Shown here: positions 31,903 through 40,039 of the stretch, piece after piece | Layout: the number at the start of each line of letters is the position of its first letter | Numbering within the stretch: position 1 is the stretch's first letter | Assembly (NCBI GenBank): GCA_018820315.1 | Contig: JAHJOQ010000059.1 | Span: 1-64,000 of the forward strand | Reading direction: 5' to 3' | Source: Candidatus Zixiibacteriota bacterium | GTDB lineage: Bacteria; Zixibacteria; MSB-5A5; JAABVY01; JAHJOQ01 | Length of the DNA: 64,000 nucleotides | Made by a program: the position numbers and the translations under genes | Notes under the pieces: generated by a model | Seen by the model: only the letters and a program-made list of their open reading frames with translations | The model's database searches: none | Told to the model about the DNA's origin: nothing

Positions 31903-32460
31903 ATGAGGCATTTCAGGTTTGAGATCATATCAACATTCTTGTTACTCCTTATTATTGGCGCGGGATGCGGCAGTGATGACAAGGGCACCGATCCCGAGAA
32001 GGTGAATTCAAATCTGGTATGGGTGGACAGGGTCTCCGCAGTATCGAATCAGGATGATGTGAAAGTGAATGTGTGGTTTGGGAATCTTGTGCCCTTGTCA
32101 GGTCTTGAGGTGCCATTGAGAGTCTCCGGGGGTGGATTTACTATAGACTCCGTGTCGTTTGTCGGCAGCAGAGTTGGAGACTTCTTTTTGACAATCGGAG
32201 CGGTCGATACTTTTACTAACACTATTGAGATAGCCGCTGCGGACACGGCAGTATGTGTAGACTCAGGAGAGGGGCTCCTGGCCAGCCTGTACTTCACTCT
32301 CTATTCCAGTTCAGGCGGGCAGGTTCTCGCAATTGACACATTTTCGCTCGACACGGGCCCCTATCATAGCCTCATCTATATAGATACGAGTGAGGCGGGT
32401 GCTGAAATCATCCCTGACTTCATCGATGGTGAAATATCCGTTCTGCAGACGGGAGGATAG
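31903..32460 (+). CDS. Cohesin-like lipoprotein, copy 1
   Basis: A 185-residue lipoprotein with the lipobox GAGC at residues 19-22 and a short polar linker. The domain begins 'LVWVDRVSAVSNQDDVKVNV' and continues 'LSGLEVPLRVSGGGFTIDSV' and 'GEGLLASLYFTL'. The order of strands, the 'v-V-n-v-w-f-x-N' opening and the late 'G-LaslyF' strand match the all-beta cohesin fold that binds dockerins. A similar protein follows 49 bases downstream. Recognition is by pattern only and needs a profile search. Dockerin-bearing proteins are coded at 14616 and 43911. Confidence 0.6.
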   Translation: MRHFRFEIISTFLLLLIIGAGCGSDDKGTDPEKVNSNLVWVDRVSAVSNQDDVKVNVWFGNLVPLSGLEVPLRVSGGGFTIDSVSFVGSRVGDFFLTIGAVDTFTNTIEIAAADTAVCVDSGEGLLASLYFTLYSSSGGQVLAIDTFSLDTGPYHSLIYIDTSEAGAEIIPDFIDGEISVLQTGG

Positions 32461-32509
32461 CGGCGCCGCGCGGCTATAGTTCGCAAACGGTTTTGCCGAC
32501 ATACTCAAC

Positions 32510-33103
32510 ATGAGCCAATCACTTGTTCGTGTTCTGATCTCCTCCTTGCTGTTGCTGGTGCTTTGCGTCACATGCAGCAGTGATCGTGGAGGTGGTCCGA
32601 ACGACCCGCCGGACGATCCCGATCCAACTGGCGGTAATCTCATCTGGATTGATTCAGTTGACGCTTCACCAGGGACACAGGCGGTGATTGACGTGTACGC
32701 GAAACTGAGCACCGCGACTCAGGCTGTCACACTGCCGTTCGTGCTTGAAGGAACAGATTTTGTCATTGACTCAATGTCTTTCGTCGGCACGCTACTTGAC
32801 AATGATCCGATCTGGCTGTATGACTCGATCACCCCAAAAACGATCACAATCGGTATGGCCTTCTATCAGAAAGATGCTGTCGGACCAGATTCAGGTCAGA
32901 TGCTGCGACTCTTCGTGTCTCTGGACGAATCTGCCCCAAACCAGATTATCAGGGTCGACACGACTTCGATAATTCTGGAGAACGGTTCAGTCGCGAGTCT
33001 GGTGCTGGTTGACACCACTATAAATCCGTATCCGAAAGAATACATCCCGGAGTTCTTACCGGGGACGATAAGAGTCACGGATCAACCGGTTCTCTCCTTC
33101 TAA
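32510..33103 (+). CDS. Cohesin-like exported protein, copy 2
   Basis: A 197-residue paralogue of the previous gene: after a signal sequence (cysteine-rich end 'LLVLCVTCSSD', an imperfect lipobox) and an Asp/Pro-rich linker, the domain reads 'LIWIDSVDASPGTQAVIDVY', 'AVTLPFVLEGTDFVIDSMSF' and 'GQMLRLFVSL', the same strand order as copy 1. Both end with 'IIPDF' or 'YIPEF' and then 'G-I'. Tandem duplication is clear; membrane attachment is less certain than for copy 1. No ribosome site is obvious. Confidence 0.6.
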   Translation: MSQSLVRVLISSLLLLVLCVTCSSDRGGGPNDPPDDPDPTGGNLIWIDSVDASPGTQAVIDVYAKLSTATQAVTLPFVLEGTDFVIDSMSFVGTLLDNDPIWLYDSITPKTITIGMAFYQKDAVGPDSGQMLRLFVSLDESAPNQIIRVDTTSIILENGSVASLVLVDTTINPYPKEYIPEFLPGTIRVTDQPVLSF

Positions 33104-33397
33104 CTACTCTGATCGATCATTCCACTTTCCGGCTCCACTGGTCGGCGCGATTGTCCTGCCATTACGCCAGTTCTGACATGCTTGTGAAATTTTGATCAAA
33201 AAACCTCTTGATAGCCGATGAATTTTCTCGTATTTCTGACGATAATCCTAATAGCGGCGAACTTGCTAATCTTAAACGGTGCAACATGATAGCGTAGGTC
33301 TACAATGAGGAGTATCGCGATAGTTTTAGTTGACATTTTCTGGCATCGCATCAATATTTGTGGTCAAAGTAATATAGGCTAATCCATGGGAGAAGGT
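33104..33397. other. Upstream region of the porin-cytochrome operon
   Basis: These 290 bases carry no gene. The right-hand part holds TTGACA and AATATT (33330-33358), 40 bases before the first cytochrome start. No structured RNA was recognised. Confidence 0.55.
33330..33358 (+). promoter_or_regulatory. Probable promoter of the porin-cytochrome operon
   Basis: A perfect TTGACA (33330-33335), a 17-base spacer and AATATT (33353-33358, four-of-six) lie upstream of the 11-haem cytochrome gene. Confidence 0.45.
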
Positions 33398-34333
33398 ATG
33401 AAGCTACGATATCTCGCATTGCCTGCGCTAGTGCTTCTCTGCTCAGCTGGACTTGCGTACGCCGGGCACTCCTATTCAAAAGTGGAACTCTCAGAGACAT
33501 CATCAATGTGTCTGAATTGTCACGATGAAAAGGCTGTATCTCTTGAGAATTCCCTGCACCGCATAACTGAAGTGACTGATATGACCTCTGCGATCGCAAT
33601 CGGTTGTGTCAACTGTCATGACGGCTGGGCTGAACACGTTGAAGATCCCTCTCCGGAGAACATCGAAACTGCCGCGAGGCTCTCTTTCTCCGGGCAGGTT
33701 GATCTATGCAGTCGTTGTCACATCACACTTCATCAGTCGAGCATGGTGTCATCTGATCCGCACGGAAGGGTGGAGATCGGCTGCATTGAATGCCACAGCG
33801 TTCATTCGAATGTTAACGAACATCTTGTCAAGGATGACAGCGACAACTATTGTGCAGTGTGCCACACAAGTGTTGCTGCAGAGTTCAAACGCAGGTCGGC
33901 TCATCCGCTCGAATCGGGAAACGTTCGCTGCGTGGATTGTCACATGCTCGATGGGACTGAAGATCAACTCTTGGCTGTTGGGCTTGACTGGCGCTGTCAG
34001 AATTGCCACTCCGATCTCTCAGGACCGTTCTTGTATGAGCATCCGGTCGTGTACGCTCACTTGGTGGAGGGGGGAGGTTGCACCGAATGTCATCAACCGC
34101 ACGGATCGCCGAATGATCGTTTACTCAAGCAGCCGGGAGACGGTGTTTGTCTGCAGTGTCATGGTACACCGCCGGTGCACAGAATCGCACATGCCGGAAT
34201 AGCGACCAGGTTCGCTTGTGTTGACTGTCACAGCGACATTCATGGTTCGTTTGACAACAAGAAGCTGCTCGACCCGGCTCTTGGCGCTAAGATGGTGTTT
34301 GATTGTTCTGAATGTCATGTTCTCGGAGACTGA
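33398..34333 (+). CDS. Periplasmic 11-haem c-type cytochrome of a porin-cytochrome conduit
   Basis: ATG 33398 is preferred to ATG 33386 because GGAG then lies five bases upstream and the signal peptide (MKLRYLALPALVLLCSAGLA, cleaved at AYA) is intact. The mature protein holds eleven CXXCH motifs: CLNCH, CVNCH, CSRCH, CIECH, CAVCH, CVDCH, CQNCH, CTECH, CLQCH, CVDCH and CSECH. With no membrane anchor and an outer-membrane barrel gene 11 bases downstream, it fills the place of MtrA or DmsE, which insert haem wires into MtrB-type barrels and usually carry ten haems. Extra His residues could be distal ligands. Confidence 0.92.
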   Translation: MKLRYLALPALVLLCSAGLAYAGHSYSKVELSETSSMCLNCHDEKAVSLENSLHRITEVTDMTSAIAIGCVNCHDGWAEHVEDPSPENIETAARLSFSGQVDLCSRCHITLHQSSMVSSDPHGRVEIGCIECHSVHSNVNEHLVKDDSDNYCAVCHTSVAAEFKRRSAHPLESGNVRCVDCHMLDGTEDQLLAVGLDWRCQNCHSDLSGPFLYEHPVVYAHLVEGGGCTECHQPHGSPNDRLLKQPGDGVCLQCHGTPPVHRIAHAGIATRFACVDCHSDIHGSFDNKKLLDPALGAKMVFDCSECHVLGD

Positions 34334-34344
34334 GGAGGATGGAT

Positions 34345-35907
34345 ATGAAACTGACCAGAATATTCGTGATGCTGAGCGGGATCGTCCTCCTGAGTTGGTC
34401 TGCTGCGAATGCAGGCTCTGGGAGCGCGAAGCTGTCACTCGGTTACACATACCTCGATGAAGAAGGGAACCTGTCGGTCAACCAATCCACATTCAATCTA
34501 TATGGGGATCCGACAGTATCAATCGAGGATATTCTTTACAGATTCGACAACGGTCTGAGGCTGCGAGCCGATCTGACAAACATCATAATGAACAACCGGA
34601 ATCTGACGCTTGGATTTGATAAGGCTGGACTCTTCGGCGTTCGCATGCATCACAACCAGTATCGACGATTCTACAGCTTCGACGGCAGTAGTTTTACCAG
34701 ACGGCACAGATCGGGGGGTGAACTGTGGGTGCGACCTCATCGTTATCTGAAGTTCTTCGGTGGTGGATCATACGTCGGGAAATCGGGTCAGATGGTAGAC
34801 TTGTTCGATGCGGCAAGCACAGCTACGATCGACGTGGATTACACGCAGACATACTACAACGGTGGTGCGCATGTGAACTACGAGGGGCGGATGTTCCGCG
34901 CGGAGTTCCGTGGATCCGATTTCACCAATAATGAGGATGCAAGCCGCAATCAGAATTGCACCAGCATCCTGCTCACGGCTGGCGGCCCTTTGCCTAAGTA
35001 CGATTTTGTCTCTGTGCTCGGAGGCTTCAGGAGATTCGCAACTAAGTACGACTCAAGCGGACTCGAACTCACTTCGAATCGCGGGTGGGGTGGAGCTTCT
35101 TTACGGTTACCGGAGAATTTCAGCGTGAAATACAGCTTTGTATTCGATCGCACCGGATCAGACTCGGATCTTGTGAAGACCGACAATGTATCTCATGCTG
35201 TGTACGCAACACACACATGGCCGCATCTTGCGTACCTGACTGCGGGGTATCAGAAGGACTATAACGATGACTTTGAAGCTCAGGTGCAGAGTAACTCGTT
35301 CTATTTCGCTGGCTGGCTAATGCCGATTAAGTCGCTCGAATTCAGGGCCGAGGTTGGCACCAGAGCAGAAGAAGTGACGGATGGTGTGCGACTCGTCGGT
35401 GATGAAGATCACTTCAGGCATAAATTCACTGCGAAATATCGCTGCAGGGATAACGGGTCACTTACTCTTGGTGTTGATTCTCGCACGCGCACGAACGATA
35501 TGCTTGGGAGCGAGTCGGAATTCACACGATTCACTGGTCAGCTCGAAGCCCGCATTGCTGAATATGGTAATTTCACGGGCGGATACGTTTATTCGCAGGG
35601 GGATTTCGAAAACAAAGAGCAGACGTTCGAATTCGCGGACCATACATTGTTCGGAGATATAACCTCGCGCGAATGCCACAATGCGATCGTCGGATTCGGT
35701 GCGACATATTACCAGAGCAGGCGCGATCTCGATGTCGTGAAGTCTTCGCTTCGTTTCAGCGGCGCATATAGATTTCTGGAATTCTACCATCTGGAGGTGA
35801 AATACTCGGTGTTCAACTTCGATGATTTCCTGTATACCGATCAATTCGATGAGTACTACACGGGCAATATCGTGGAAATGAAAATTACGAGAGATATATC
35901 ATTGTAG
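34345..35907 (+). CDS. MtrB/PioB-like outer-membrane beta-barrel
   Basis: ATG 34345 is chosen: GAGGAGG lies six bases upstream, and the signal peptide (MKLTRIFVMLSGIVLLSWSA, cleavage near ANA-GS) begins there. The 520-residue mature part consists of alternating hydrophobic/polar strands such as 'LRADLTNIIMNNRNLTLGFD' and 'LSFKYSFVFDRTGSDSD'-like turns, the pattern of a large barrel of MtrB/PioB size class (shorter than Shewanella MtrB, about 700). The N-terminal CXXC of MtrB is absent. It ends with a strand, 'IVEMKITRDISL'. Position between the 11-haem cytochrome and the six-haem lipoprotein is the strongest evidence for a conduit sheath. Confidence 0.82.
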   Translation: MKLTRIFVMLSGIVLLSWSAANAGSGSAKLSLGYTYLDEEGNLSVNQSTFNLYGDPTVSIEDILYRFDNGLRLRADLTNIIMNNRNLTLGFDKAGLFGVRMHHNQYRRFYSFDGSSFTRRHRSGGELWVRPHRYLKFFGGGSYVGKSGQMVDLFDAASTATIDVDYTQTYYNGGAHVNYEGRMFRAEFRGSDFTNNEDASRNQNCTSILLTAGGPLPKYDFVSVLGGFRRFATKYDSSGLELTSNRGWGGASLRLPENFSVKYSFVFDRTGSDSDLVKTDNVSHAVYATHTWPHLAYLTAGYQKDYNDDFEAQVQSNSFYFAGWLMPIKSLEFRAEVGTRAEEVTDGVRLVGDEDHFRHKFTAKYRCRDNGSLTLGVDSRTRTNDMLGSESEFTRFTGQLEARIAEYGNFTGGYVYSQGDFENKEQTFEFADHTLFGDITSRECHNAIVGFGATYYQSRRDLDVVKSSLRFSGAYRFLEFYHLEVKYSVFNFDDFLYTDQFDEYYTGNIVEMKITRDISL

Positions 35908-35916
35908 GAGGGAACC

Positions 35917-37020
35917 ATGCGTTGTCTTAAGTTGGCAGCCACCACGCTACTCGTTCTGCTGCTTGCTATCTCTGCAGGCTGCGAACGCAAGATTGTCATG
36001 AATGAAGATGGTGGCGATACAGAACTGCAGTGTTTCGGATGCCACACCGATCAGGACCTTTCGCTTGTCGAGGCACGTGCTCAGTGGGAGACGTCGAATC
36101 ATGGCATAATGGAAACTGTGGACCGCGGATCGAGCGGGTCATGCAGACCGTGCCATTCGAGCGAGGGCTTTCTTGAGAATGTGACCGGCGAGGACTTCGA
36201 TGGACAAGCAGTATCCAAGATTGGGTGCTTCACCTGCCATGCTCCCCACACGAACGAGACGTTTGCTCTCAGAACCGAGGAAGCGGTTGAATTGGGCAAT
36301 GGTGCGATCTTTGACGGGGGTGAGGGCAATCTCTGTGCGGCATGCCACCATGGCCGACGCAATGTCGAAACGTACGTCTTTGACGGTGTCGAGTTGTCGC
36401 AGCATTTTGGTCCGCACCATAGCAATCAGTCCGATATGCTCGCGGGTGAGAATGCTTACGAGTACGAAGGCGTGTCATACACCAATTCGCCTCACACGAC
36501 ATTTGTGGTTAACGCATGCGTTGACTGCCACAAAGCAGATCCTGTGGCGCGCTATGTAGGCGGGCATACATTCCGCATGGTATACGGTGAAGAGGATGAT
36601 GAGGATATCAACGTAGACAATGCCTGTAACGTAAGTGGATGTCATAGCGACCTTGAGGACTATAATAGGCCAGCCACAGCAGATTTCGACTGGGATGACG
36701 AAACCGAAGGCGTTCAGGATGAGATCGAAGGTCTCCTTGACAGCCTCAAGACACTGCTGATCGATGAAGGCCTGCTTGTGTATTACGAGGAAGACGATGC
36801 TTACGAGCCTCCGGAAGACTATATTCTATCCGATGCCGATTCGGCTGGCGCAGTTTTCAACTATTTGTATGTTCACGAGGATAAATCTGAGGGTATTCAC
36901 AACACGAGCTATGCAGTTGCATTGCTGCAGTCATCGATAAACTTCATTGCGAATGGTGATCCTACCGGAGCTCCAGCGACTCCCACCGGGCCACCGTTTG
37001 CTGCGATTCGATCTCACTGA
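35917..37020 (+). CDS. Multihaem cytochrome c lipoprotein (six haem sites, one CX4CH)
   Basis: A 367-residue protein with a lipobox (SAGC, near residue 22) after a signal peptide. It has five CXXCH sites (CFGCH, CRPCH, CFTCH, CAACH, CVDCH) and a sixth of CX4CH type, CNVSGCH. The C-terminal third has no haem and is acidic (EDDEDINVD, then helices and a Pro/Thr-rich tail). A lipidated multihaem cytochrome beside an MtrB-like barrel usually sits on the outer surface and passes electrons to minerals, humics or partner cells. GGAGGG precedes the ATG nine bases after the barrel stop. Surface display is inferred from context, not shown. Confidence 0.88.
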   Translation: MRCLKLAATTLLVLLLAISAGCERKIVMNEDGGDTELQCFGCHTDQDLSLVEARAQWETSNHGIMETVDRGSSGSCRPCHSSEGFLENVTGEDFDGQAVSKIGCFTCHAPHTNETFALRTEEAVELGNGAIFDGGEGNLCAACHHGRRNVETYVFDGVELSQHFGPHHSNQSDMLAGENAYEYEGVSYTNSPHTTFVVNACVDCHKADPVARYVGGHTFRMVYGEEDDEDINVDNACNVSGCHSDLEDYNRPATADFDWDDETEGVQDEIEGLLDSLKTLLIDEGLLVYYEEDDAYEPPEDYILSDADSAGAVFNYLYVHEDKSEGIHNTSYAVALLQSSINFIANGDPTGAPATPTGPPFAAIRSH

Positions 37021-37040
37021 TCGATGATATTTCCGAACAA

Positions 37041-37067
37041 GCCCTCCGATAGACTCGGAGGGCTTTG
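37041..37067 (+). terminator. Terminator between the porin-cytochrome and cytochrome b units
   Basis: GCCCTCCGA (37041-37049) and TCGGAGGGC (37055-37063) form a perfect nine-pair stem with a five-base loop followed by TTTG. It splits the cytochrome region into two transcripts. Confidence 0.8.
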
Positions 37068-37135
37068 TCCTATCGGAACTATAACGAAAAATCAGATCAA
37101 GAAAGCGCTGCCCGCAAGAAAAGAAGATGATTTGA

Positions 37136-37164
37136 TTGACAAATAGGGTGCATGTTGTTATATA
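37136..37164 (+). promoter_or_regulatory. Strong promoter of the Rieske-cytochrome b unit
   Basis: TTGACA (37136-37141), exactly 17 bases, and TATATA (37159-37164) lie 68 bases before the Rieske start codon and after the preceding terminator. Confidence 0.6.
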
Positions 37165-37231
37165 TGGCGAATCGTAGTGCGAGTCGCAGAACTTGGCACA
37201 TTGATGCAGATGAATTAGAGTTTATTCAGCT

Positions 37232-37672
37232 ATGAATGAGAAGGATGTTGGCAGACGGACGTTCCTGAATTGGCTGATTGGCGGCACCACTCTGGCGAGC
37301 CTTGCGGCCATTTTCTATCCAGCAGCACGGTTCTTTGAGCCGCAGGAGGTTCCTGAAGCCGCAATATCGAGTATCAAGGTCGGAGTCATCGAGGATTTTC
37401 CTCCCGATTCGGGGTCGATTTTCAAATTCGGGCGGAAGCCAGGGATTCTTATTCATACTGCAGACGGCAAATTCAAGGCGTTCCATGCTACATGCACTCA
37501 CCTGAGTTGCATAGTGCAGTATCGAAAGGACCTCGGTGCAATCTACTGCGCATGCCACAATGGTCGTTTCAACACAAATGGCGAGAATATTTCCGGCCCA
37601 CCACCGAGGCCGCTGGAAGAATTCGATGTGCATCTGAAGGGCAATGAAATCTATGTATCGGTGCGGAGTTGA
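37232..37672 (+). CDS. Rieske [2Fe-2S] protein of a bc-type complex
   Basis: A 146-residue membrane-anchored iron-sulfur protein. The N-terminus 'GRRTFLNWLIGG' has the twin-arginine pattern followed by a hydrophobic helix, as in Rieske proteins exported folded by Tat. The cluster ligands are in 'CTHLSCIVQY' and 'YCACHNGRF', giving the C-T-H...C-x-x-C-H cluster-binding pair. Its stop overlaps the region of the cytochrome b start (GTG 37675), so the two subunits are coupled. It would take electrons from quinol and hand them to the haem proteins coded downstream. Confidence 0.93.
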   Translation: MNEKDVGRRTFLNWLIGGTTLASLAAIFYPAARFFEPQEVPEAAISSIKVGVIEDFPPDSGSIFKFGRKPGILIHTADGKFKAFHATCTHLSCIVQYRKDLGAIYCACHNGRFNTNGENISGPPPRPLEEFDVHLKGNEIYVSVRS

Positions 37673-37674
37673 TC

Positions 37675-38763
37675 GTGGATAACGGAAGCAGCGGACAGAG
37701 ATTGTATAGCTTTCTGAACGAACGTTTCAAGCTCGATTCTCTCGTAGAATTCTTCAGTCACAAGACAGTCCCGCGCCACAGCCATTCGTATTTGTACTAC
37801 ACAGGTGGCGTGAGCCTGTTTCTTTTCATGGTTCAGGTGTTTTCTGGCATTCTGCTTTTGATGTACTATAAGGGATCTGCTGACTCGGCATTCGAATCTG
37901 TACGATTTATCATGTCCGAAGTACCGTTTGGATGGCTGATTAGAGATGTCCATTCGTGGTCTGCCAATCTGATGATATTCTTTGCATTTATCCACATGTT
38001 CGCGGTCTTCTTCACGAAGTCGTATCGCTTTCCACGCGAACTCACCTGGCTTTCCGGAATGGTGCTTCTCTTTCTCAGTATGGTCTTTGGTTTCTCGGGA
38101 TACCTTCTGCCGTGGAACGAGCTTGCATTCTTCGCAACGAAGGTAGGCACTGACATTGCCGGTGCGCTACCGGGGATTGGCGAGCCGATACTGAAGCTTC
38201 TGCGGGGGTCGGAGGATGTCACTGGCGCTACGCTCTCGCGGTTTTTCGGCATTCATGTCGCCATAATGCCCGGAATATTCGTCCTGTTCCTCACTATGCA
38301 CTTGACCCTGGTGCAGAGACTCGGCATGTCGGAGCCGCTCCATTGGAAGAATCTTCCGGAGGACAAGAAGAAACATACACCGTTCTTCCCGAATTTCCTG
38401 CTGAGAGATTTCTCACTTTGGCTGATCATACTCTCAATTGTGGCTGCCCTGTCTGTTTTCTTCCCGTGGGAGCTTGGCCTGAAGGCTGATCCGTTTGTAT
38501 CGGCACCAGCGGGAATCAAGCCCGAATGGTATTTCATGTTTGTGTTTCAGACGTTGAAGTATATTCCGGCGCATGTGCTGATAATGGAGGGCGAGCTTTT
38601 CGGGATATTGATGTTCGGTCTTGGAGCATTGCTTTGGATGTTTGTGCCGTTCTTCGATAGAGAGGGCAGAGGCGAGAGACTCAGCCGGGCGTTCACTTAC
38701 GCCGGTGTCGTGATTGTTGCCTATATCATCGTGATGACAGTTCTCGGATACACCATGGAATGA
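37675..38763 (+). CDS. Cytochrome b of a bc-type quinol oxidoreductase
   Basis: GTG 37675 is preferred to TTG 37669 because GGAG lies seven bases ahead of it. The 362-residue protein has about eight membrane helices and joins the b6-like part to a subunit-IV-like part. Haem ligands are His93/His107 (13 between) and His194/His209 (14 between, the b6-type spacing). 'GFSGYLLPWNELAFF' and the quinol-site motif 'KPEWYFMF' are present. There is no cytochrome c1 gene; the nine-haem membrane cytochrome that follows probably takes that place, as in some Geobacter and green-sulfur-like complexes. Confidence 0.93.
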   Translation: MDNGSSGQRLYSFLNERFKLDSLVEFFSHKTVPRHSHSYLYYTGGVSLFLFMVQVFSGILLLMYYKGSADSAFESVRFIMSEVPFGWLIRDVHSWSANLMIFFAFIHMFAVFFTKSYRFPRELTWLSGMVLLFLSMVFGFSGYLLPWNELAFFATKVGTDIAGALPGIGEPILKLLRGSEDVTGATLSRFFGIHVAIMPGIFVLFLTMHLTLVQRLGMSEPLHWKNLPEDKKKHTPFFPNFLLRDFSLWLIILSIVAALSVFFPWELGLKADPFVSAPAGIKPEWYFMFVFQTLKYIPAHVLIMEGELFGILMFGLGALLWMFVPFFDREGRGERLSRAFTYAGVVIVAYIIVMTVLGYTME

Positions 38764-38770
38764 GATAGCT

Positions 38771-40039
38771 ATGTGTAAGCGTGATACAATCGTTTTACTT
38801 GCTGCAATCATTATTGCATTGATGCTCCCATGGTTCGCATACGCCCAGGAGCCGAAGAATACTTGCGTCGAATGCCACCTGCAACTGGATGACGAATTGC
38901 TGGCACCGGCCGAGGCGTTCGAGAACGATGTGCATAATCGCCTTGGAGTGCTATGCGTAGGCTGTCATGGTGGCGATTCAGCGGCGGAGGACGCAGATGA
39001 TGCGATGAGCAAACAGATGGGTTTCATCGGCGCACCATCTCCGTTGGAGATTCCGAAGCTCTGTTCGAAGTGTCACGCTGATCCTGTCTACATCAAGACG
39101 TTCAATCCGCAGCTTCCGACAGATCAGTACTCCAAGTATCTGACCTCGATGCATGGAGTGAAGAACCTTAAGGGGGATCAGAAGGTAGCGCAATGTGCGT
39201 CATGCCACCGAGCGCATGACATAAGAGCAGCCAATGATCCGAAATCATCCGTGTATGCAATCAACATTCCGGCGACGTGCGCGCATTGTCACGCCGACTC
39301 GGTATACATGGCCGGACGTGGAATTCCGACAAATCAGATGGAGCAGTATGCTTCATCCGTTCATGGCGTAGCGTTGCTGGAGAAGCACGATGTCGGCGCT
39401 CCGGCATGCAATAGCTGCCATGGTAACCACGGCGCAATGCCACCGGGTATCACTTCGATTGAGCGAGTTTGTGGATTATGCCACGCGAATAACATGACGT
39501 TTTTCGAGGAATCTACCCATTTCGAATATTTCCAGGGCATGAATGCACGTGCCTGCGAGACCTGCCATTCCAATCACGCAATCGCGAAGCCGTCGATCGA
39601 GATGCTCGCCGGCGAGCACTCTGTCTGTCTTCAGTGTCACGATCCAAAAGACGGGACTGGTGGAATAGAAGCTGCTATGCAAATGCGGATGGCAATAGAC
39701 TCGCTGAGCGGCCTGATAGATGATGTGAATGCCAGGCTTGACGATGCCGATCAAAAAGGGCTATACGTGACCAACGCGCTGTTCACGCTCAAGGACGCGA
39801 CGCAGAATCTATTTGAGGCTAAGACTGCTGTGCATATACTGAATGCAGATAGTGTTTCCGGCATAACACTTGATGGTGACAAGCTCGCCCAGCAAGCAAG
39901 TGTTGTCGCTGATGGTCTACTGGCCGACTATGTGGTTCGCAGGATCGGTCTTGCTGTATCGGTCGTTGTACTCCTGTTTCTCGCGCTGCTGATATGGATC
40001 AAAGTGCGTCGGATAGAAACGCGGCAGAAGCTTCGCTAA
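38771..40039 (+). CDS. Membrane-anchored nine-haem cytochrome c
   Basis: A 422-residue protein with an N-terminal signal segment (ending AYA), nine CXXCH sites (CVECH, CVGCH, CSKCH, CASCH, CAHCH, CNSCH, CGLCH, CETCH, CLQCH) over residues 30-300, a helical stretch without haem, and a C-terminal membrane helix (about 385-407) with a basic cytosolic tail. It starts seven bases after cytochrome b. The layout resembles the large periplasmic cytochromes of Cbc or NrfH/NapC-like complexes that draw electrons from cytochrome b. It likely links the bc core to periplasmic acceptors, including the 11-haem cytochrome coded upstream. Confidence 0.9.
   Translation: MCKRDTIVLLAAIIIALMLPWFAYAQEPKNTCVECHLQLDDELLAPAEAFENDVHNRLGVLCVGCHGGDSAAEDADDAMSKQMGFIGAPSPLEIPKLCSKCHADPVYIKTFNPQLPTDQYSKYLTSMHGVKNLKGDQKVAQCASCHRAHDIRAANDPKSSVYAINIPATCAHCHADSVYMAGRGIPTNQMEQYASSVHGVALLEKHDVGAPACNSCHGNHGAMPPGITSIERVCGLCHANNMTFFEESTHFEYFQGMNARACETCHSNHAIAKPSIEMLAGEHSVCLQCHDPKDGTGGIEAAMQMRMAIDSLSGLIDDVNARLDDADQKGLYVTNALFTLKDATQNLFEAKTAVHILNADSVSGITLDGDKLAQQASVVADGLLADYVVRRIGLAVSVVVLLFLALLIWIKVRRIETRQKLR

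Follow-up and report, generated by a model that had tools for sequence, protein, structure and literature searches.

Does the six-gene cytochrome locus of an uncultured member of the Zixibacteria join a conduit across the outer membrane to a quinol-oxidising complex in the inner membrane, and do the two work as one electron-transfer chain? The locus lies in a 64-kb window (the whole stretch of 64,000 nucleotides that we analysed) from a Zixibacteria metagenome-assembled genome of 3.78 Mb in 173 contigs; the nearest records of its cytochrome b are from Candidatus Zixiibacteriota. An earlier reading of the sequence, here called the original prediction, had seen in these genes a possible wire from the quinone pool to the cell surface. 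We judge it reasonably likely that the locus specifies an extracellular electron-transfer chain in two modules, with the conduit drawing electrons from the quinol-oxidising module and from other feeders as well.

Translation of the window gave six open reading frames, designated A, B, C, R, b and D, which span positions 33386-40039 of the forward strand:

33386..34333, forward strand: A, undecahaem MtrA-like cytochrome with 11 CXXCH, comprising ten MtrA-type sites and an eleventh, C-terminal site; the start may be 33398
34312..35907, forward strand: B, MtrB-like outer-membrane beta-barrel with a fold match to MtrB and no haem site; the conserved start is probably 34345
35917..37020, forward strand: C, hexahaem lipoprotein, probably a cell-surface or outer-leaflet cytochrome, with five CXXCH and one CX4CH, and Cys22 after a signal peptide
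37021..37231, forward strand: intergenic boundary between A-B-C and R-b-D, 211 bp, with weak promoter-like and terminator-like matches
37232..37672, forward strand: R, Rieske [2Fe-2S] protein, PetC-like, with an N-terminal anchor (PF00355, PF25471; CTHLSC...CACHNG)
37669..38763, forward strand: b, cytochrome b of the fused b6 plus subunit IV type, with two b haems and a PEWY Qo motif (PF00033/PF13631/PF00032)
38771..40039, forward strand: D, nine-haem c-type cytochrome (9 CXXCH) with a C-terminal membrane anchor, in the cytochrome c1/f place

This is the inventory that the original prediction had given, and its count of 26 c-type haem sites (11 in A, six in C and nine in D) plus two b haems also holds, one of the c-type sites being a CX4CH. 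The start that it assigned to A, 33398, corresponds to codon 5 of the frame that opens at 33386, an in-frame ATG. For B the conserved start is probably codon 12, which is nearly conserved among homologues and from which B would no longer overlap A. Across the window A, C and D are the sole open frames of at least 60 amino acids that contain CXXCH, and since their haem motifs are kept across dozens of homologues these are not chance occurrences. The gaps within each group of three genes run from -22 to +9 bp, as against the 211 bp between C and R, around which we found a weak terminator-like hairpin (37008-37024) and a weak promoter-like match (37193-37221), both of kinds about as frequent in shuffled sequence. 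Taken together, the gap sizes and these weak matches make it reasonable to treat A-B-C and R-b-D as two transcription units, in keeping with the two adjacent operons first proposed.

The outer-membrane conduit

As judged by homology and structural modelling, A-B-C is a genuine MtrAB-type porin-cytochrome conduit across the outer membrane, with A predicted to lie inside B. This reading, which upholds the original one, stems from the homology of A to MtrA, from the MtrB-like barrel of B and from the constant association of the two genes. In a profile search of the PDB, A matched MtrA (6r2q_A) with an E value of 4.2e-48 over profile positions 36-298, a stretch that spans all ten MtrA haem sites. 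It scored 167.7 bits with TIGR03508 (the DmsE family), under the curated cut-off of 192.2, but the PDB match together with an N-terminal hydrophobic segment marks it as a full-length MtrA-family protein with a signal peptide; no other full-length MtrA match was found in the genome. B gave neither a family match nor a useful sequence match in the PDB, and fold comparison alone was informative. The barrel of MtrB has 26 strands, and so does the AlphaFold2 model of B, built from 29 homologues (predicted local distance difference test score, pLDDT, 87.8). Its best fold in the PDB by Foldseek was MtrB itself (6r2q_B; E 1.6e-16, query template-modelling score, TMq, 0.78); the next-best fold scored far lower (E 2.3e-9, TMq 0.48), and siderophore receptors reached about 0.5.

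Of the 118 class genomes, 65 have the barrel. An A gene encoding a decahaem or undecahaem cytochrome adjoins it in every one of the 30 barrel loci read, and C then follows in nearly all. The possibility that homologues of the barrel are substrate porins unlinked to cytochromes is thus contradicted, and the strand number, the best fold and the neighbouring cytochrome gene together rule out B as an ordinary substrate porin.

The eleventh haem site of A (34304-34321) falls outside the stretch aligned to MtrA, at the C-terminus. When its spacing was compared among homologues (L002-L041, L115-L129), the site proved to occupy one homologous C-terminal position across the A family (n = 34), as CX4CH in 23 members, CX2CH in four and CX1CH in seven. 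In the known structure the C-terminal end of MtrA faces the outer cytochrome, and so by analogy the added haem would lengthen the wire outward.

C is the least conventional member of the conduit. Its Cys22 and six haem sites are kept in 25-30 homologues. At the sixth site (36625-36645), 16 of 30 relatives have CX4CH, 12 have CXXCH, and one each has CX5CH and CX6CH; because it aligns with CXXCH in those 12, the CX4CH of C probably binds haem. From its gene position and lipid anchor we infer that C acts like an outer cytochrome and would be located at the surface. The MtrC-like role implied by an MtrABC-type reading was not supported, nor could C be classed as a decahaem cytochrome of the MtrC/OmcA/UndA fold: it has six sites, an MtrC/MtrF domain was detected below threshold only, neither MtrC nor UndA appeared among its PDB sequence matches, and its AlphaFold2 model (pLDDT 75) had no significant fold match. 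C was also rejected as an NrfA- or OcwA-like protein, for which there was a weak signal in PDB sequence profiles (NrfA, E 7e-7; OcwA, E 0.002) without fold support. Homologues of C also occur near R-b-D in loci with no recognisable A-B (L057:459-2594, L072:366-2621, L080:7517-9367 and L099:15426-16631) from Bacteroidota/Ignavibacteriota, Calditrichota and Chlorobiota, some of them enlarged to about 600-750 amino acids with 8-9 haems.

The conduit resembles MtrCAB, MtoAB and PioAB in its operon order, in which an MtrA-family cytochrome adjoins an MtrB-type barrel of 26 strands and a lipoprotein cytochrome of the outer side. Conduits of this kind enable Shewanella to respire rust. It differs from them in the eleventh haem site past the MtrA C-terminus, in the distance of B from MtrB (12% identity in the fold alignment) and in a six-haem C without a convincing match to MtrC. 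It differs also in its neighbour, which is a Rieske/cytochrome b module, whereas the quinol dehydrogenases known beside mtrAB are CymA, MtrH/MtoC and NetBCD (PMC6295460, PMC8805035). A second conduit, convergent to A-B-C and made up of a decahaem cytochrome and a CXXCH-containing protein of barrel size, was seen in two relatives without this cytochrome b (L121:4429-7130 and L160:2955-5652); the one in L121 scores above the cut-off for the GSU2203/GSU2204 families.

The Rieske/cytochrome b/nine-haem complex

Sequence comparison supports the identification of R-b-D as a complex of the quinol-oxidising Rieske/cytochrome b type, with D apparently occupying the place of cytochrome c1 or f. R matches PetC models (62 bits), and its cluster-binding motifs CTHLxC and CxCHNG are invariant across 79 homologues. 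The haem ligands of b, H95/H109 and H196/H211, are invariant in 68 homologues, as is the Qo motif P285-E286-W287-Y288, and the second histidine pair is 15 residues apart, the b6-type spacing. D ends in a hydrophobic helix (residues 392-410), and a C-terminal transmembrane segment is found in 65 of 67 homologues; cytochromes c1 and f are anchored by a membrane helix at the same position. The module thus has the Rieske ligands, the two histidine pairs, the PEWY motif and the membrane-anchored cytochrome c subunit of a b6-like complex, and departs from a canonical bc1 or b6f complex in having the nine-haem D for a monohaem c1 or f. Neither D nor b matched PF01292 or PF03264, which means that the complex is of neither the CbcL nor the CymA type, and the original prediction, in its comparison with Cbc-type oxidoreductases, is not supported here. 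The Rieske/b pair is present in single copy in the genome.

The R-b-D trio is found in Ignavibacteriota, Bacteroidota, Calditrichota, Neomarinimicrobiota, Kryptoniota, Krumholzibacteriota, Latescibacterota and other phyla, usually without the barrel. D, with nine or eleven haems, lies directly 3' of b in almost every locus that is not truncated, and does so in many phyla; in L042, L082 and L084 it is several kb downstream. Thus, the proposal that a nine-haem protein replaces c1 stands as regards the place of D, but the replacement is no invention of this organism: the complex occurs across many phyla of the Fibrobacteres-Chlorobi-Bacteroidetes group, and the multihaem 'c1', being standard in Ignavibacteria, Calditrichota, Neomarinimicrobiota and others, is nothing special to this one bacterium. 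Multihaem partners of Rieske/b are known as well from Geobacter (PMC2825233) and from anammox bacteria (PMC12954380).

In the anammox bacterium Kuenenia, Rieske/b complexes likewise have a multihaem (hexa- or octahaem) cytochrome c in the f/c1 place of a b6-like complex (PMC12954380), but these also include subunits that are putative NAD(P) oxidoreductases, their role is in the anammoxosome, and no outer-membrane conduit has been described with them. The Geobacter extHIJKLMNOPQS genes resemble our locus in uniting a porin-like outer-membrane protein (ExtI), a Rieske protein (ExtO), a cytochrome b (ExtP) and multihaem cytochromes (ExtM/N/KL/S) in a single cluster (PMC5877670, PMC2825233). ExtI, in contrast to B, has been described as non-analogous to known pcc clusters and weakly phosphate-porin-like; our b, a fused b6-IV protein, matches the ExtP model below cut-off, and D matches ExtM marginally.

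Proximity and co-occurrence of the two modules

If both modules are of recognisable kinds, are they linked? Co-occurrence was counted in the 118 class genomes, our own included and the weakest matches left out. Barrel and cytochrome b were found together in 44 genomes, the barrel only in 19, b only in 23 and neither in 32, an association with an odds ratio of 3.2 (Fisher p 0.003, kinship of the genomes being ignored). In eight of the 44 genomes with both (our own, G003, G004, G006, G007, G060, G085 and G107) the modules lie no more than 5 kb apart. The six-gene order that the original prediction had proposed to look for in relatives therefore recurs as proximity but not as a fixed order, there being four arrangements: A-B-C followed by R-b-D, as in our genome; R-b-D followed by A-B-C (G003, locus L034); convergent, with a NapC/NrfH-like gene between the modules (G004, G006, G007, G060 and G085); and divergent (G107). 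A hexahaem neighbour of about 500 amino acids in other loci is NapC/NrfH-like too, and we rejected its assignment as NrfA. Outside the class, a Latescibacterota chromosome (L041) carries A-B-R-b-D, with a barrel homologous to B (hhalign probability 100). A cytochrome b tree (85 rows) puts the conduit-adjacent cases in four separate places, one of them (L115) a long branch. This repeated proximity in differing arrangements argues for a functional link.

Several observations weigh against a link of a stricter kind. The 19 barrel-only and 23 b-only genomes show that R-b-D is not an obligate companion of A-B-C. Five genomes have the two modules on a single contig but 49-977 kb apart (in the remaining genomes with both they are on different contigs, so that the distance is mostly undecidable), and of the 36 loci of R-b-D homologues with long flanks just three had A-B nearby. 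Moreover, our genome contains other candidates for quinol oxidation, which are gathered on contig C88 in a second respiratory cluster (L151:3766-19096): a CbcL-like fusion of multihaem and b561 parts, a hexahaem protein of the NapC/NrfH-like kind and an octahaem-FeS-NrfD set. The modules being so often separate, and other inner-membrane quinol dehydrogenase candidates being present, the joined wire of the original prediction is supported as a recurrent neighbourhood and not as a dedicated single wire; the conduit probably has several feeders, with R-b-D among them. The C88 cluster also encodes a 19-haem protein with b561 similarity.

The main rival explanation, which we regard as possible although somewhat unlikely, is that R-b-D is a general menaquinol oxidase, equivalent to complex III, that feeds a periplasmic multihaem pool serving several reductases or oxidases. 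The conduit would then be fed mainly by the CbcL-like and NapC/NrfH-like proteins, and its proximity would reflect a loose respiratory neighbourhood. The wide occurrence of R-b-D without a conduit, including the b-only genomes of the class, fits this explanation, as does the presence of further feeders, both in the genome and in adjacent loci. So does the Rieske/b pair of Caldithrix abyssi (Cabys_2558/2557), which resembles ours in lacking a nearby monohaem c1 and in having alternative complex III (ACIII) elsewhere in the genome, but which sits within the Nap nitrate reductase locus, where porin-cytochrome genes have not been reported (PMC5317091). On the other hand, the proximity recurs at four points on the tree and takes four arrangements, which exceeds what a frozen neighbourhood would leave, and our genome already has an ACIII for oxygen. 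Its one haem-copper oxidase, which is caa3-like, adjoins the ACIII genes (including ActD). Oxygen respiration can thus do without R-b-D, which was rejected as the sole complex III for oxygen. We also rejected it as a feeder of NrfA, since no NrfA above cut-off was found in the genome, though an octahaem protein with similarity to the hydroxylamine oxidoreductase/hydrazine-dehydrogenase family is present (C103, L153:6505-8061).

Two further observations concern genes near or apart from the locus. Directly upstream of A are two tandem, apparently related lipoproteins (31903-33103) without a Pfam match. Elsewhere in the genome (C143, L152:1155-6183), cytochromes with 26 haems (658 amino acids) and 16 haems (406 amino acids) lie beside a SurA/peptidyl-prolyl isomerase-like protein; no barrel was identified there.

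Electron flow and its significance

To the observed protein families, cofactor sites, barrel type, gene order and recurrent proximity of the two modules we would fit the following scheme. The Rieske/cytochrome b complex would oxidise (mena)quinol at its Qo site, passing one electron to the low-potential b haems and the other to the Rieske cluster and from there to the membrane-anchored D. From the c1/f place D would deliver electrons to the periplasm and hand them to A, either directly or by way of small cytochromes, and A within B would carry them across the outer membrane to C. The hand-over from D to A, the energetics of a Q-cycle and an outward flow as the usual mode are the presumptive parts of this scheme. 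Given conduit genes beside a haem-rich quinol-oxidising complex, minerals or other partners outside the cell probably give electrons to the bacterium or take them from it.

We agree with the original prediction that direction cannot be read from sequence. If the wire ran inward, Fe(II), a mineral or a partner cell would supply electrons to C and A; D and the Rieske/b complex would lift part of them to the quinone pool, and the rest would pass to the caa3 oxidase. MtoAB and PioAB conduits run inward, according to two reports (PMC12016527, PMC6831781), the caa3-type oxidase is at hand, and gene content has led to the proposal that Zixibacteria oxidise iron (PMC8478452). A Rieske/b complex seldom runs uphill, however, and the genome gave no match to RuBisCO in a search that did not extend to the reductive tricarboxylic acid cycle or other routes of CO2 fixation; we consider inward flow distinctly unlikely. 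Most improbable is a conduit whose partner is an extracellular enzyme acting on some soluble substrate, with C itself a reductase on an NrfA/OcwA haem scaffold and not a mineral-contact cytochrome, for although the profile matches of C point that way, matches of such strength can mirror haem-site spacing alone, the CXXCK catalytic site was not found in its sequence, and its model resembles no known fold significantly.

The conduit and the Rieske/b complex are both of known kinds, and the new point is their pairing. The presence of mtrAB in Zixibacteria has been reported (PMC9769843), and iron cycling has been proposed for the phylum (PMC8478452). Our literature search found no description of an MtrAB-type conduit beside a Rieske/b/multihaem complex, an absence that is weak evidence.

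What, then, would the pairing mean for the organism? On the usual view, the well-studied iron respirers gain little energy from the quinol step at the inner membrane (CymA; CbcL or ImcH in Geobacter). We raise, tentatively and with more doubt than confidence, the possibility that a Zixibacteria lineage and at least one member of the Latescibacterota run extracellular respiration through a proton-pumping Q-cycle, in which R-b-D hands electrons straight to the undecahaem conduit and so conserves energy, unlike CymA and CbcL in Shewanella and Geobacter. The MtrA family is extended here to a conserved 11-haem form, and the recurrent pairing supplies a concrete, testable set of genes. If the coupling of Rieske/b to an MtrAB conduit is true, it would give an uncultured phylum that is widespread in sediments a way into extracellular respiration that conserves energy.

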